From a virus: 26,805 nt of DNA. Below, in pieces: positions 15,840 to 26,805 of this stretch (the stretch's first letter is position 1; every line of letters begins with the position of its first letter). The DNA is taken from positions 1 through 26,805 of IMG/VR virus record IMGVR_UViG_3300048929_000754; one strand, 5' to 3'. The position numbers and the translations under genes were made by a program. Below the pieces are notes generated by a model. The model ran no database searches, was not told where the DNA came from, and saw nothing but the letters and a program-made list of their open reading frames with translations.

Positions 15840-16721
15840 ATGAAGCCATTGTTTTTAATGGCGGCAATAGCCGTTATCGCGATCAGTTCTGAGGCCAAGG
15901 CGGCACCGATCCGACTATGCACCGGATCGGACAGCGGTGTCTACTTCGCCGCTGGCGATGCCATCGCCAAGATGGCCGGGAAAAGCGTGAGCGTGGTCAA
16001 CGTGCCGACGGAAGGCACGATCGACAACCTCGAGCGCGTCCTCGACCTCGACCCGGCCAATCCGGAGGCCTGCGACGCCATGATCGGCCAGCCGGACGGC
16101 CCGGTCTATGTCGGGCGCTCTTCCCCGGCCAAGGTCAAGAAGCTGCGTCAGGTCGCAACGCTGCACCGGGAATATCTGCACGTGCTGTGCGGCAAGAAGT
16201 CCGGCGTCGATGATCTGTCTGACCTGCCCGACGACCCGGCCAAATACTCGATCGCGATCGGCGAGCCCGGCAGCGGCGCGTGGTTGATCTGGCAGAACAT
16301 TATTGCCGAGGACGATTCCTACGGGAAGGTGCCGGTTCGCAATGAGGGCGGCGTTCTTGCCCTCTCGGCGGTGTCGAGCGGCGAAGCAACATGCATGCTC
16401 GTCCCGGCCGGGCTGCGAAACGGCACCGTGACGGAAGCAGATCAGACCTACGGCGATACCGTCATTCTCGCCGGCGCCAATGATCGCGACTTCGACGATG
16501 CGACCGATATCAAGGGCGACCCGCTCTATGAGTATCGCGACATCCCGAAGGGCACCTATCCCAAGTCGCTGCAATCCGGCTGGTTCGCATCCCGCAAAAC
16601 GATTTCGTGGCCCGCCGCTGTCTTCGTGAACACTGATCGAATCGATGCGAAGGCACTGCCCGGCTTCGTCCAGGCAGCGGCACGCGCCGCGCAAGGCATC
16701 AAGGCGGAGTACGGCAATTGA
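15840..16721 (+). CDS. TAXI-family periplasmic substrate-binding protein
   Basis: The 293-residue protein has a clean signal peptide (residues 1-21, ending SEAKA before APIRLCTGS). The mature start TGSDSGVYFAAGDAIAKMAG matches TAXI (TRAP-associated extracytoplasmic immunogenic) solute-binding proteins. Further typical text is IAIGEPGSGAWLIWQNII (about 139-156) and a C-terminal WPAAVFVNTD. Known TAXI proteins capture small acids and deliver them to a TRAP permease. No permease is present here, only a 56-residue membrane peptide coupled to it. In a phage it is probably a lysogeny or superinfection factor, or has been reused. Ribosome site: TTGAGGAC before the ATG. High GC agrees with the rest of the right arm. 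Confidence 0.75.
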   Translation: MKPLFLMAAIAVIAISSEAKAAPIRLCTGSDSGVYFAAGDAIAKMAGKSVSVVNVPTEGTIDNLERVLDLDPANPEACDAMIGQPDGPVYVGRSSPAKVKKLRQVATLHREYLHVLCGKKSGVDDLSDLPDDPAKYSIAIGEPGSGAWLIWQNIIAEDDSYGKVPVRNEGGVLALSAVSSGEATCMLVPAGLRNGTVTEADQTYGDTVILAGANDRDFDDATDIKGDPLYEYRDIPKGTYPKSLQSGWFASRKTISWPAAVFVNTDRIDAKALPGFVQAAARAAQGIKAEYGN

Positions 16722-19761: not shown

Positions 19762-20441
19762 AACCTCCGCGATAGAGTGGTGCGACGCCACGGTAAACTT
19801 CTGGTGGGGCTGCACGAAGGTCTCCCCTGGCTGCGATCATTGCTATGCCGAGACATTGAACGCTTTCCGCGGCACCGGCGAGTGGGGCCCGAACGCGCCA
19901 AGGCGGAAGATCAAGGGCGCAGTCTCACTGCTGCGCATGCTGAACCGCAAATCCGCGACATCCTTCTTCAGCGAGCGTGGCCGCTCCATCCGTGTGTTCA
20001 TGCAGTCGATGTCAGACACCTTCGATAACGAGGTTTCTGACGACTGGCGCGCCGAGCTGTTCGCGGAAGCGAAGGAAGCCCGCTGGGTGAAGATCATCCT
20101 ATTGACCAAGCGCGGCGCAAACGTCCCAAAGATGGTCCCTCCCGACTGGCTGGACGCCTGGCCGAAACACATCGGCCTGATGTTCTCCATCACCAACCAG
20201 CGCGAAGCCGATCGAGACATCCCCCGCCTCATCGACCTGAAGAAGCGTCTCGGCTTGCCGTGGATCGGATTGAGCCTCGAGCCTCTCCTTGGCCGCGTCC
20301 GGCTAAAGGCGGAATGGCTCGATCATCGATTGGGTGATCGTCGGCGGAGAGAGCGGTACCGATGCCAGACCGATGCACCCGCAATGGCTCGACGATATCA
20401 AGAATGCATGGCGTACCGCAACAACGCCGCACACTAGATAG
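19754..20441 (+). pseudogene. Gp37/Gp68-family (DUF5131) gene, frameshifted and 3'-truncated
   Basis: The first 180 residues are a normal DUF5131 protein: SAIEWCDATVNFWWGCTKVS, then PGCDHCYAETLNAF (three Cys in the family position), RVFMQSMSDTFD, ILLTKR and WIGLSLEPLLG. After LKAEWL the frame breaks. The conserved IDWVIVGGESGTDARPMHPQ appears in the +1 frame from 20325, so one base was gained (or two lost) near 20320. The +1 frame stops at 20441, and the expected C-terminal FFFKQWG is absent in all frames. As written, the original frame ends at 20437 with an unrelated Arg-rich tail. The break coincides with the start of the AT-rich cassette. Confidence 0.75.
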
Positions 20442-20610: not shown

Positions 20611-21945
20611 ATGACGTTACAGAAGTTTAAGTGGGACACGGTTGAACTATTCGACCCAGAGAGTCTTGTGTTCGAAGGAAATGGCGCGAAGCATGAAGCA
20701 TCAGAAATCGCATTAGGACAACGCGACCTTCTTAATTTCATCGTGCGACGGGCGCTGGAATACGGAAGAGATATTCCCGCAATCACGAGTGTAGGGAATT
20801 ATTTCTTCGAAGCATTTGGTGGAGCCCTCGCAACATCCGTACGTGTGGTATCAGCTCAAAATGGCTCTTTCATCGTAGAAAGCCCCTACCCGGTCCTAAC
20901 CCATCAAAGGGTGGTGGATTGGGATAACCGAATTCGTTCCGAAATCGCCCGCGTTACGCGTGCTGAAACAAGGAACCTCGCGTGGTTTATATTGGGAGCC
21001 TTAGGCTTCTTTCAGTATCGCTCAAGTGAGGCACCAGGCGCAATCGAACCTGGCAGCTTCCCCCCCCAAATTTCCGGCATGATGGAATTCTCCGCGATGC
21101 TGACGCATAGACTGGCCTTCACTGAGGCAACTTCGGAGAGAGCTCAACGACTAAAGAGGCTCCATGATGATGCAGAGAAAGCGGTTGAAAAGATCGGTAT
21201 CGAGCGCGTTGCACACGAGGAGTTTATAAAGGTATTAAAAGAGAAACTTGCTGAGGTCGACACAGCATCGGACTTGTTGACAGCTAAAGTCAGCAAAGTT
21301 TCGAAATCCAATAGAGAGCAGTCATCGCACTTCACTCAACTCCTGCAGCAGCAGCGAGCCGAATTCGAAGCCACTCTGACTCAAGCTCAGACGGCCGCGG
21401 AGCAAAGTTTATTGGATCATTCTGCGCAGATAAGTGACCGGCTGAACTTAAGGCTCGTCACCCAGCGTTGGCACGACGTTAGAAAGCGAGCGAAGCGCAC
21501 TCTCTGGGCATCAGGTATCGCGATTTTTCTTATGTTTGTGTTGGCGTCGGCTATCATCGCTAGACATGGCCATGAAATACTGGATTTTTTGATGCCGTTT
21601 GATCTGAAAACGATGTATCTCAACACCACCGCTACCGGCGTTCTGAGTATGCAAATCGCTAGAATGGCCTTGGTAGCAGTTCCCATCGCGACATACTTCT
21701 GGCTACTCAAGATTATCGTGCGCATATTCATGCGGTCGCTTGTGCTCATGGACGACGCAGACCAACGCGCTACCATCATGGACAGCTACTATGCGCTGAC
21801 GGGAGACGGAATGACAGATGAGCGTGCCTTACCAATGATGCTCTGGGCAATTTTCCGTCCGTTACCCGGGCACGGGCCAGATGGGATTGAGCCACCAGAT
21901 TTTACTGAGGCGATAAACGCTGGCTTAAAAATAGGCTCAAAATAA
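20611..21945 (+). CDS. Membrane protein with long coiled coil (DUF6161-like)
   Basis: This 444-residue protein has three parts: a soluble N-terminal region (about 1-170) with FGGALATSVRVVSAQNG, a long coiled coil (about 170-285, rich in Glu, Lys and Gln), and two membrane helices (about 298-317, GIAIFLMFVLASAIIA; about 352-374, IARMALVAVPIATYFWLL). A cytosolic C-terminus follows, with RSLVLMDDADQRATIMDSYY and MMLWAIFRPLPGHGPDG. That tail resembles DUF6161, which I recall from membrane proteins of defence islands. ATG 20611 is preferred because GGGGG lies 6 bases upstream; 20587 and 20554 are in-frame alternatives. It precedes the KAP NTPase by 62 bases in the same direction and probably works with it. 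The DUF name needs a search. Confidence 0.65.
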   Translation: MTLQKFKWDTVELFDPESLVFEGNGAKHEASEIALGQRDLLNFIVRRALEYGRDIPAITSVGNYFFEAFGGALATSVRVVSAQNGSFIVESPYPVLTHQRVVDWDNRIRSEIARVTRAETRNLAWFILGALGFFQYRSSEAPGAIEPGSFPPQISGMMEFSAMLTHRLAFTEATSERAQRLKRLHDDAEKAVEKIGIERVAHEEFIKVLKEKLAEVDTASDLLTAKVSKVSKSNREQSSHFTQLLQQQRAEFEATLTQAQTAAEQSLLDHSAQISDRLNLRLVTQRWHDVRKRAKRTLWASGIAIFLMFVLASAIIARHGHEILDFLMPFDLKTMYLNTTATGVLSMQIARMALVAVPIATYFWLLKIIVRIFMRSLVLMDDADQRATIMDSYYALTGDGMTDERALPMMLWAIFRPLPGHGPDGIEPPDFTEAINAGLKIGSK

Positions 21946-22007
21946 ACTTGCTCGCGGATCGGCAGCGAGGTGCAGATCTCTACCTGCCTGTTTGCTTCGA
22001 GGAAACT

Positions 22008-24197
22008 ATGTCACAGATCGATACAGACCGCCCAATAACTGGCGTTGCAGACGATGAGTTCGGTTTCGCAGACACCGCTGAGAAACTAGCCGCGTCGATA
22101 GCTGGTCTCACCAAAAGCGAGGGCATGGTCTTCGGTGTTGAGGGTCAATGGGGATCTGGAAAATCAAGTTTTCTGAATTTCTTACGTTCAGCTATAGCCA
22201 CGCACCACACTCAGATTAATGTCGTAACTCTTTCGCCTTGGCTTACTGGCGACGCTTCGAGCTTGGTAAGCAGTTTGATGGCAGCAGTAGCCCCGGTATT
22301 AGAACAATTAGAAGACGATAAGAGCGGAGAGAATGAGGGCCGCGTCAAACAGAACATTGCCGACGCCGCTGATGTTCTGAGAAAGTATGCACTCAAGACG
22401 ACTCGGAGTTTGACACCAGTAGCACAATTCGCCGGCCTTTTTCTGCCAATGGCGGCCGTCATGAAGGAAGGGCTTGAAATCGCGTCCGGTACACTAGACC
22501 GACTGGGATCAGAGCCAACGGAAACAGCTCTCAAGCAAAAGATCATCGCGCGCATAACTGCGCTCGAAGCTCAATTTGTTGTGATGATTGATGACCTTGA
22601 CCGTTTGGAGCCTGCTCAGGCATTGGAGGTCGTGCGGTTGGTCCGCTCAGTAGCCGACTTTCCAAATTTCGTTTATGTACTCTGCTATGATCGAGCTGTT
22701 TTAGCCCATGCGATAAAGCTCGGTCTAAACGTCGTCGACGGCGATCAGTATCTGCAAAAAATTGTACAGCTTGCCTACACATTACCGATGCCGGAGCCCT
22801 TTGATCTAAGAATATCTTTCAGATCGAAAATTCTCGCTCTTTACGAAGAGGTTTATGGCGTACCGCTTTGCGGTGATGAGCTAGATGACCTTAACGCTGC
22901 AATTGATTCCGAGGGAGGAAGACTCTCCACCCCTAGAGAAGTCAAGCTTGCTTTCAACAACTTGGCTTTTGTTTTGAAGTCGATCAAAGACGATATCTAC
23001 TTCCCAGATTTGTGCCGAATAAGTTTAATGAAAGTGCTGCGACCCGCGCTCTACGTCTGGGTCCAGGAATATCTGGCAGTTCGCGCTTTGTTGGTTACCG
23101 GAGATGCACGTGTTGATGATGATGAGCGCAGAACCCTCGGCGAGCGAATGCTAGCTCTCGTATCACCCGACGATCCCAAATCCATGAAAATTTGGAAGAT
23201 GCGAGAATACCTCCCTGGAGTTGCGGGCAAAAGCGACCCCAAAGATATGGTTTTTGATACCGTATCTTCCCGCGAAATGAGGTTAGCAATCGAGAAGAAA
23301 AGGCTGGGTAGCCCCGTTAATCAAAGGCATTATTTTGCTCTCCAAGGTTCCAAGGCAATGCTTTCAACAGCTGACATGCTGCGACTAAGAACGCTTGCTG
23401 GCGAAGATGTTGATGATCTCGTAGATATTCTAACAAAATACATTCGGGAGCCACGTCCGGTAGGGAGAAGCTGGTTCAGCCATATCATTGCGAGATTGGA
23501 CGAAAACGAGCTAGCCAATTACTCGACCACCGAGCTATGTGGTCTTGTGGAGGCTACCGGGAAGGTAGCTGGAATTGCTTTGAGCAACTTGTGGCGACGC
23601 GGAGCTGTGTTCTCGATTGCGGATGAAATCGGCGAACTGATGAAATCCGCTCTTCGTCGCATCAAACTCATCGATACCCCCCTTTTTGATCTCACCCTCG
23701 ACACATTGCTTACGACTGCAAACGTTTCATGGCTGGTTTCGAGTTTTGTACGGCAAGCCGCCTTTGACAACGGCCTTGTAGGTGATCATGCGATACCAGC
23801 TGCCTCGAGAATCTTGTCAGACGAGCAAATACAACGAGCAAAGACGATACTCTCATCGCGATTAGAGGATGAGCGGGAGACACTGATGCCCATTCCGAAC
23901 CTCGCTGCATTTCTTTTCGGATGGAGAGACTTGCTGGGTTTGGAAGGCGCCCAAAAATGGGTTGAAGAAACCGCTGAGAGTGACGCCGGTCTTGTAGACT
24001 TTCTCGACGGTTTGCGCAGCTGGGCAATGAGTTCCTACGTCTACTATCCGCTATCCAAAAAAAGCGTATCGACTTTCGTCAATTTTGAAATCGTTGAAGC
24101 GCGATTGGCCGGAATTGAGGTGAGCGGGTCGGTTGAACTTCAGCGACGGGTCGCAGACATTCGAGTAGCTCTTTCTCAAGGTCGAGATGAGCTTTAG
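22008..24197 (+). CDS. KAP-family P-loop NTPase
   Basis: This 729-residue STAND-like ATPase has Walker A GQWGSGKSS (residues 46-54), Walker B VVMIDDLDRLEP (191-202) and the KAP sensor-type strand FVYVLCYDRA (221-230). Between the Walker motifs lies a hydrophobic stretch (VAQFAGLFLPMAAVM, about 138-152), where KAP proteins carry membrane segments. The region after 240 includes the KAP-typical LSTPREVKLAFNNL and a long helical C-terminus of unknown type. ATG 22008 is chosen for GAGGAAA upstream; the longer frame to 21948 has no ribosome site. KAP proteins such as PifA and QatA act in phage exclusion at the membrane. Here the partner is the coiled-coil membrane protein, not QatBCD. Confidence 0.85.
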   Translation: MSQIDTDRPITGVADDEFGFADTAEKLAASIAGLTKSEGMVFGVEGQWGSGKSSFLNFLRSAIATHHTQINVVTLSPWLTGDASSLVSSLMAAVAPVLEQLEDDKSGENEGRVKQNIADAADVLRKYALKTTRSLTPVAQFAGLFLPMAAVMKEGLEIASGTLDRLGSEPTETALKQKIIARITALEAQFVVMIDDLDRLEPAQALEVVRLVRSVADFPNFVYVLCYDRAVLAHAIKLGLNVVDGDQYLQKIVQLAYTLPMPEPFDLRISFRSKILALYEEVYGVPLCGDELDDLNAAIDSEGGRLSTPREVKLAFNNLAFVLKSIKDDIYFPDLCRISLMKVLRPALYVWVQEYLAVRALLVTGDARVDDDERRTLGERMLALVSPDDPKSMKIWKMREYLPGVAGKSDPKDMVFDTVSSREMRLAIEKKRLGSPVNQRHYFALQGSKAMLSTADMLRLRTLAGEDVDDLVDILTKYIREPRPVGRSWFSHIIARLDENELANYSTTELCGLVEATGKVAGIALSNLWRRGAVFSIADEIGELMKSALRRIKLIDTPLFDLTLDTLLTTANVSWLVSSFVRQAAFDNGLVGDHAIPAASRILSDEQIQRAKTILSSRLEDERETLMPIPNLAAFLFGWRDLLGLEGAQKWVEETAESDAGLVDFLDGLRSWAMSSYVYYPLSKKSVSTFVNFEIVEARLAGIEVSGSVELQRRVADIRVALSQGRDEL

Positions 24198-24430: not shown

Positions 24431-25174
24431 CTAGGCTACTGCTGCTGTTTGATTCTGTTGAGGTAAAGCTAGGGGAAGTACTGTGGCCAATCCCTGTCCA
24501 AACGCTTTCAAAAATCCCACGTCTTGCAAAAAGGCTTCGGGCCCTGCTGAACTTCCTGGATTTAGCGCGTGTGCAATACCATTCCTTTTTTCCATGAAGT
24601 CGTTCAGATCCACCATGAAACGACCGTGCGCCGCTCCCTCGCTATCCTCTCCGTAATGTGCTTTGACCGGATCAGACGCTGCTGCAACCAAGCAGACATT
24701 ACTTAAGCTGGAAACATTGAATAGCTGATTTATTTGAGTGGGTCGCATGTTGCTTTCGTTGTGTATCAACTCCTTGTAGATATCCTGCTCCAAATCACCT
24801 TCTATGAACGCGCATACTTTCTCAAAAGACGTCCTTGCCTCTCTAGCAATAGACGTCAATGAAACCGGTGTGCCACCGGTATCAATTTTCGCTCGCGCAA
24901 TCTCTTCAAGGGTTCGCTTCCACGCTGTCGCCGCGAATTTACGGGGTAACGACCCGGGGTCGCGCACTCGTGCAACCAGCAGCCTTGCGTACTGACGAGC
25001 CATTTCGCGCACGAACTCTTCGAACGTCGCAGCGAGTAACAAACTGGCAGAATTTACAGAAGCTATTTTCGTCTTTCTGGAGTTGCGCTGGTCCTGACAA
25101 AGCACGACGACTGCGGAGATAGCTTCAAGGTCACTCAAGAAATCTTCTAGAATGATGTCAAATTCCTCAACCAT
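24431..25174 (-). CDS. HEPN-domain RNase-like protein (MAE_28990/MAE_18760 type)
   Basis: The 247-residue protein has the HEPN catalytic motif in NDFMEKRNGIAHAL (R197, N198, H202: R-N-x3-H) and a first-helix pattern SASLLLAATFEEFVREMARQYA (about 42-63, shown by LLLAATFEEFVREM) typical of the MAE-type HEPN families. HEPN proteins with this motif cleave RNA, often as the toxic part of an abortive-infection or toxin-antitoxin pair. The gene follows the DUF262 gene by 7 bases on the same strand, a pairing known from comparative work on HEPN systems. The ribosome site is weak (GAG), so translation probably depends on coupling. The precise subfamily is my estimate. Confidence 0.7.
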   Translation of the reverse strand: MVEEFDIILEDFLSDLEAISAVVVLCQDQRNSRKTKIASVNSASLLLAATFEEFVREMARQYARLLVARVRDPGSLPRKFAATAWKRTLEEIARAKIDTGGTPVSLTSIAREARTSFEKVCAFIEGDLEQDIYKELIHNESNMRPTQINQLFNVSSLSNVCLVAAASDPVKAHYGEDSEGAAHGRFMVDLNDFMEKRNGIAHALNPGSSAGPEAFLQDVGFLKAFGQGLATVLPLALPQQNQTAAVA

Positions 25175-25181
25175 CTCTTAC

Positions 25182-26372
25182 TCACACTGGCTTTAAGATA
25201 TTTTGCAGCAAATCTATGCGATCGCGCACTGAATCTGCTGTATTTCCCCTGCCAACTAGTATTTCATATTTCACTGCTGTTGAATTTGCTTCCTCGAGGC
25301 GCTTTTGTATAGCATCTTTATCTTTCACAAGATTTTGACGCTCGCTCCATAGCCTATTAATTGCTACCATGGATGCGTCATACACGGCTGCAGAAACGCG
25401 TTCCTTGCCATCGGTCAATGTTCTTAGAGTGAATGGAGATCCGTCGAAAATCTCGTACAAAGCGGCGAACCGAGTTTTATATTCCTCTTCTGCTTCACGC
25501 GCTTGAAATTCATCCATTTTGACCTCTAAAGCTCTGTCCAACATGGACTTCATTGAGCCTCGAATATTGCGAGGGTCCTTTAGAGCGAAATAACGTAGGA
25601 CGAGCTCGCAATCCTTCATGCTGTTGTAGAGAGCGTTCCTCTGTCTTTCCGGGTTGATGTAATAGTCCTCAGCGTTCTTCTCAGTATACGGTGGGATACC
25701 AAAGACATGTGTGAACAGATCAAAACGGCTCAATCGCACGATAGCGTCGTTAAATTGGCCCGGGTTTTGAGCATTCCTCAGCTCTTGCGGATTGAGCTTC
25801 ATTCCACCTGTGTTGAGACGATCGAATACTAAGCGCCGAATATCGGTGAGTGATAACGACCCCTGCGCGTCTTTTTTCTCTGCTTCACTTTCCAGAAGAA
25901 GAACAATTGCCGAAAGACTGGCTCGATCTAAGGTCCGCTTCATTCTTGGGGGAGCAGACGGGTAGCGAAGCCCGTTCAACGGAGACAAAACCTTGAGCCC
26001 GGTTAAAGCAAACGAACCTGCAAAGAACTCCCTAATCGTGTTCAGACGCTGTTGACCGTCCATGACTTCATAGCGCGCGGCATCTGTCTCGTAAAAAAAG
26101 ACCGGAGGAACCGGGATATTTAATAGAAGCGACTCGATCAGGCGAGATTTCTGTGACTGCGACCACCTCAACCGGCGCTGGTACTCGGGGTGCAAGTTGA
26201 TCGCTTCACGCCTTTCGATCATGTCTCTGATCTGCGGCAACAGAAAATTATTGGTTTGGTAAATTATTCGAAATGCGTTTTGCGCCAGAAACTCATCCGG
26301 ATCGCGGACATCCTCGCCGGCTACTACTTCATCCGGCTCTTCGGTGTTCCCCAGATCAACATCGACAGTCAT
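25182..26372 (-). CDS. DUF262 domain protein (GmrSD N-like, ParB-type fold)
   Basis: The 396-residue protein shows the DUF262 signatures: HPEYQRRLRW (61-70), LIESLLLNIPVPPVFF (78-93), YEVMDGQQRLNTI (101-113; DGQQR is the nucleotide-binding/catalytic loop) and FDRLNTGGMKLNPQELRN (about 167-184). There is no C-terminal DUF1524/HNH nuclease as in GmrSD; the tail is helical and charged. ATG 26372 is chosen because CCGGAG lies about 7 bases upstream; the open frame extends 72 codons further without homology and crosses the opposite promoter region. DUF262 proteins act as NTP-dependent sensors or endonucleases in defence. Here it is most likely the sensor or partner of the HEPN RNase. Confidence 0.82.
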   Translation of the reverse strand: MTVDVDLGNTEEPDEVVAGEDVRDPDEFLAQNAFRIIYQTNNFLLPQIRDMIERREAINLHPEYQRRLRWSQSQKSRLIESLLLNIPVPPVFFYETDAARYEVMDGQQRLNTIREFFAGSFALTGLKVLSPLNGLRYPSAPPRMKRTLDRASLSAIVLLLESEAEKKDAQGSLSLTDIRRLVFDRLNTGGMKLNPQELRNAQNPGQFNDAIVRLSRFDLFTHVFGIPPYTEKNAEDYYINPERQRNALYNSMKDCELVLRYFALKDPRNIRGSMKSMLDRALEVKMDEFQAREAEEEYKTRFAALYEIFDGSPFTLRTLTDGKERVSAAVYDASMVAINRLWSERQNLVKDKDAIQKRLEEANSTAVKYEILVGRGNTADSVRDRIDLLQNILKPV

Positions 26373-26577: not shown

Positions 26578-26805
26578 ATGTCCGACAATCCCGCAAATCT
26601 AGTATCGCTCGACAGCTATCTCACCCTAAGAGAGATCACATCCATCATGAAGGTAGCGACGTCCACCCTCTACCGCTGGATGGACGAGGGGAAATTCCCG
26701 CGACCGGTGAAGCTGGGCGAGAACTGCACCAGGTGGCGCGTATCCGACATTAAGGTGTGGCAGGACGCCCGGGAGAGAGAGCCCACTCTCAAAAAAACCG
26801 GCTGA
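26578..26805 (+). CDS. AlpA-family regulator / excisionase-like HTH protein
   Basis: The 75-residue protein has the MerR-like winged helix of AlpA: YLTLREITSIMKVATSTLYR (18-37) then WMDEGKFPRPVKLGENCT and WRVSDIKVWQDAR. AlpA proteins activate or accompany prophage excision, and many act as recombination directionality factors. GGAG lies 7 bases before the ATG at 26578; a TTG at 26566 is in frame but lacks a ribosome site. The TGA is the last codon of the window. In related prophages an integrase gene is often close by, so the attachment site probably lies just to the right. Confidence 0.85.
   Translation: MSDNPANLVSLDSYLTLREITSIMKVATSTLYRWMDEGKFPRPVKLGENCTRWRVSDIKVWQDAREREPTLKKTG

Follow-up and report, generated by a model that had tools for sequence, protein, structure and literature searches.

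We consider it probable that the stretch of DNA analysed here, hereafter the window (26,805 nt, IMG/VR virus record IMGVR_UViG_3300048929_000754), carries a lone-acting PifA homologue beside a separate accessory gene of the DUF6161 family, both within the defence cargo of a temperate phage whose relatives include Agrobacterium phage Atu_ph08. PifA, the long-known F-plasmid protein that shuts out phage T7, is poorly understood and known mainly from enterobacterial F-type plasmids; the homologue described here would extend its range to a rhizobial-type phage, supports the view of PifA as a lone-acting gene, and guards against classing an unrelated DUF6161 neighbour as part of some new system.

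Both genes are on the + strand, one after the other (20611–21945 and 22008–24197), with a gap of 62 bases, the first ORF running from an ATG at 20611 to a stop at 21945 (444 aa) and the second from an ATG at 22008 to a stop at 24197 (729 aa). Each product belongs to a conserved family, and both ORFs are therefore taken as real genes rather than chance frames. A preliminary description of this DNA had drawn their anatomy correctly: the ORF, two hydrophobic segments and a DUF6161 family match bear out a 444-residue coiled-coil membrane protein with a DUF6161-like tail, and the ORF, a Pfam KAP match and aligned motifs bear out, 62 bases downstream, a 729-residue KAP NTPase whose Walker motifs are intact. 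The same description proposed that the pair is an undescribed two-gene defence system, and named beforehand two results that would speak against this, namely the lack of recurrent pairing of the two families in other genomes and a match to an already described system. Both were found, as the pairing did not recur and the NTPase matches PifA, already described from F exclusion of phage T7, so that the two-gene reading largely fails; what survives of it is a defence gene that is plausibly abortive and membrane-linked.

The identification of the 729-aa protein, a KAP-family P-loop NTPase, as a PifA homologue is made by sequence, from a full-length PADLOC match together with its clade in the tree. 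Against the PADLOC PifA model the protein scores 734 bits (E = 6.5e-221), with residues 2–726 aligned to positions 3–719 of 720, while the next family reaches 74 bits and QatA 37 bits; Pfam KAP_NTPase (PF07693) is matched at E = 4.8e-44. The Walker A motif GQWGSGKS (residues 46–53; 22143–22166, +) and the Walker B region FVVMIDDLDRLEP (residues 190–202; 22575–22613, +) are intact and invariant in the PifA alignment. Homologues covering at least 80% of the protein occur in 974 plasmid records, including an annotated phage T7 exclusion protein that adjoins pifC on an E. coli IncFIA/FII plasmid. In a maximum-likelihood tree of 29 homologues, the window PifA falls with F-type PifA in a clade of ten (support 100/100), and it forms a supported trio with a PifA from a Rhizobium etli plasmid and one from a genome belonging to the same order of bacteria. 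Nearest in this tree is the R. etli protein (WP_040140273.1, plasmid pRetIE4771b), 44% identical over the full length but encoded by a lone gene without a DUF6161 neighbour.

The likeness to F-plasmid PifA, the protein of T7 exclusion, thus comprises full-length homology, the KAP NTPase domain, the Walker motifs and membership of the same clade, whereas the two proteins share 31–32% identity, and the window gene is carried by a rhizobial-type phage without the PifC repressor gene before it. PifC is not present directly upstream of the window gene, where the encoded protein is unrelated to it in sequence (the 444-aa protein was accordingly rejected as a PifC relative), nor does PifC occur near the rhizobial PifA homologues, which argues that it is a feature of the operon and does not define the PifA protein family. 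As to membrane association, the most hydrophobic part of the window PifA, around residue 134, is only weakly so (maximum 1.46); the structure model of the protein is too poor for use (mean pLDDT 62), and a PDB sequence search returned nothing meaningful. QatA was a further candidate for the NTPase, having in common with it a KAP-type ATPase region and a weak local match, and was rejected: the window protein scores only 35–37 bits (34.6 bits with the equivalog model) versus a cut-off of 600, and none of QatB, QatC and QatD was found among the four cargo proteins scanned, in agreement with the preliminary description, which had set Qat aside.

The upstream gene (20611–21945, +) encodes a membrane protein whose N-terminal domain is helical; it also has a coiled coil, a pair of hydrophobic segments and a C-terminal tail that is strongly conserved. 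Both segments are likely transmembrane: the first spans residues 298–316 (21502–21558; Kyte–Doolittle 19-residue mean 2.39) and the second residues 352–370 (21664–21720; mean 2.06), the two being centred near residues 309 and 363. The tail, DERALPMMLWAIFRPLPGHGPDGIEPPDFTEAINAGL (residues 403–439; 21817–21927, +), is near-invariant in close relatives, and in the alignment PGHGPDGIEPPDFTEAINAGL is nearly invariant among the closest of them. Judged from profile matches, the protein appears to be part of a divergent DUF6161 group; each of its ten aligned relatives matches DUF6161 (PF19658; best E = 9.3e-15), although the window protein itself matches weakly, at 24.5 bits (2.1e-05), just below the curated cut-off of 27. 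The predicted structure, of moderate confidence (mean pLDDT 75, pTM 0.43), shows, besides the helical N-terminal domain, one very long helix and additional long helices that pass through the hydrophobic segments. A fold search with this model gave no match at E < 0.001, its top entries being coiled-coil or all-helical noise, and a PADLOC search with the protein gave no match.

Do the two genes form a unit? The 62-base gap, the shared strand, the similar G+C and the absence of any promoter-like site in the gap suggest that the DUF6161 gene and pifA may be co-transcribed; in the promoter and terminator scan, sites were no more frequent than chance, and a single weak 9-of-12 promoter match lies inside the first gene (21811–21839). 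Moreover, sequestration of PifA has been reported for FxsA, a membrane protein of E. coli (PMC8125068), so that a membrane partner for PifA is not an absurd notion and a phage-specific link between the two is conceivable. The DUF6161 protein might then be a tether, sensor or restrainer of PifA, as FxsA is for E. coli PifA, and the close spacing, common strand and common composition fit such a functional unit, which we nevertheless hold to be quite improbable given that the pairing is found at no other collected locus, that close relatives of the DUF6161 gene reside in genomes without PifA, and that the nearest PifA relatives are lone genes.

The locus comparison behind this judgement covered 28 other DUF6161-group loci and 28 other PifA-family loci, most with several kilobases per side, each set being searched with the profile of the opposite family. 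No PifA was found in the flanks of the other DUF6161-group loci (0/28, about two thirds of which are distant relatives with profile scores of 29–180 bits), and no DUF6161-group gene beside the other PifA loci (0/28), leaving the window as the only one of the collected loci to hold both; PifA was likewise found nowhere in eight records with relatives of the DUF6161 gene, of which six are whole genomes and two are phage records. The sampling took in some hundreds of genomes for each order or class, so that a rare pair could escape it, and some locus flanks were short or ended by contig ends. As an informal positive control, the neighbouring HEPN and DUF262 genes (see below) were adjacent and in the same order in both genomes with a HEPN match (2/2), and from this recurrence we conclude that the flank check does detect conserved pairs. 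Immediately upstream of PifA, the sole gene to recur was PifC, seen in three plasmids of enterobacteria. A distant PifA copy adjoining an unrelated gene, in a pairing found nowhere else among the genomes searched, is close to ordinary, and it is quite unlikely that the two proteins cooperate here, with the DUF6161 protein, coiled-coil and membrane-bound, recruiting, restraining or triggering PifA as a cis-encoded FxsA counterpart. Most likely, the phage carries the DUF6161 gene as an accessory gene in its own right, from a family that usually travels without PifA.

Relatives in the DUF6161 group occur in Mesorhizobium, Rhizobium and Phyllobacterium genomes, on a plasmid from Rhizobium rhizogenes, and in phage contigs, where they adjoin terminase or primase genes. 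Their frequency is low, at 19 of 397 genomes of the order to which the Mesorhizobium genome belongs and 8 of 385 of its class, and searches of phage collections returned no DUF6161 relative and only two short KAP matches. A partner search over the collected loci identified phage genes as the recurrent neighbours of the family, and DUF6161-group genes repeatedly stand beside genes of phage type (terminase, primase, portal-like). DUF6161 proteins thereby stand out as an accessory gene family that recurs in rhizobial prophages. The location, the membrane anchor and the coiled coil suggest a role in exclusion or defence, which is a guess from these features. The gene might by itself, and independently of PifA, serve rhizobial prophages in superinfection exclusion or against phages in a way so far undescribed, a tentative proposal that we rate as less likely than not, and one compatible with the explanation preferred here. 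It draws on relatives beside terminase or primase genes in phage contigs and in prophage-like regions with common phage-type neighbours, on the strongly conserved tail, and on a literature search that found no paper naming DUF6161; weighing against it, the protein has no PADLOC match, and a defence function is read from location only.

For PifA, the most likely reading, drawn by analogy, is that the window protein acts alone as an abortive-infection protein, and its nearest relatives are lone genes. For F-plasmid PifA, sensitivity has been tied to the phage proteins Gp1.2 and Gp10, and death has been suggested to follow from membrane depolarisation or a general arrest (PMC8594841; PMC11990801; PMC8125068). 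Plasmid-borne F pifA, driven by a foreign promoter, has served to render T7 infection abortive (PMC10824729); one group's attempt at a working pifA construct away from F failed (PMC8594841), which counts against the lone-gene reading. The simplest reading is that the window homologue would act like F PifA against some podovirus of rhizobia. By this analogy, PifA would reside at the cytoplasmic side of the membrane, a product of the infecting podovirus would serve as its trigger, the KAP ATPase would be used for activation, and activated PifA would kill the infected cell by arresting its processes or making its membrane leaky.

The carrier of this cargo appears to be a temperate phage of rhizobial type. 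The window is related to Atu_ph08 and to Sinorhizobium phage PBC5 (about 76% nucleotide identity over parts) and carries a P22-type portal gene. To the left, the cargo is flanked by a DUF5131 phage gene (19754–20437, +) that, compared with its intact 306-aa counterpart in Atu_ph08, carries a frameshift and is truncated; the frameshift lies near 20325 and homology to Atu_ph08 ends at 20410, the apparent left junction of the block. To the right lies an AlpA-type regulator (26578–26805, +; Pfam Phage_AlpA, E = 6.4e-11), in which homology to Atu_ph08 resumes from 26595 (61% identity over 70 codons, tblastx) and whose stop codon is the end of the record. In Atu_ph08, alpA adjoins the integrase gene, and its orientation relative to DUF5131 is opposite to that in the window. 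Between these flanks lie four genes, encoding the DUF6161, PifA, HEPN and DUF262 proteins, with G+C contents of 0.48–0.50 versus 0.59 for the phage part. It is unlikely that this block belongs to a bacterial chromosome, or to a mobile island of its own, beside a decayed prophage: the damage to DUF5131 where the low-G+C block starts and the lack of most structural genes in the record are what such an origin would explain, but homology to the same phage returns at the right flank, in alpA, and with Atu_ph08 homology on both sides the block sits between two phage-derived parts. The block looks like an ordinary prophage-type accessory region loaded with defence genes, and a rhizobial-type temperate phage would carry this defence cargo beside its AlpA end (and, by comparison with Atu_ph08, beside its integrase).

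The remaining cargo genes, both on the – strand, encode a HEPN protein of RiboL-PSP type (24431–25174; Pfam PF18735, E = 4.4e-12) and a DUF262 (GmrSD_N) protein (25182–26372; Pfam PF03235, E = 4.8e-25), and this pair (24431–26372) converges on the PifA gene. PD-T4-2 is made up of a DUF262 protein and a HEPN protein of family PF18735 (PMC10952713), and genes for two such proteins stand next to each other at 24431–26372. By its domain content the pair resembles PD-T4-2, from which it differs in that the DUF262 protein scores better in PADLOC with NsnA (9.2e-61) than with PD-T4-2_A (8.2e-27). Elsewhere in the window, an ORF with a signal-peptide-like start (15840–16721, +) lies in a stretch that Sinorhizobium phage PBC5 also has; among the PBC5 features under this match is a substrate-binding protein of a C4-dicarboxylate ABC transporter, which may be an unusual passenger for a phage.
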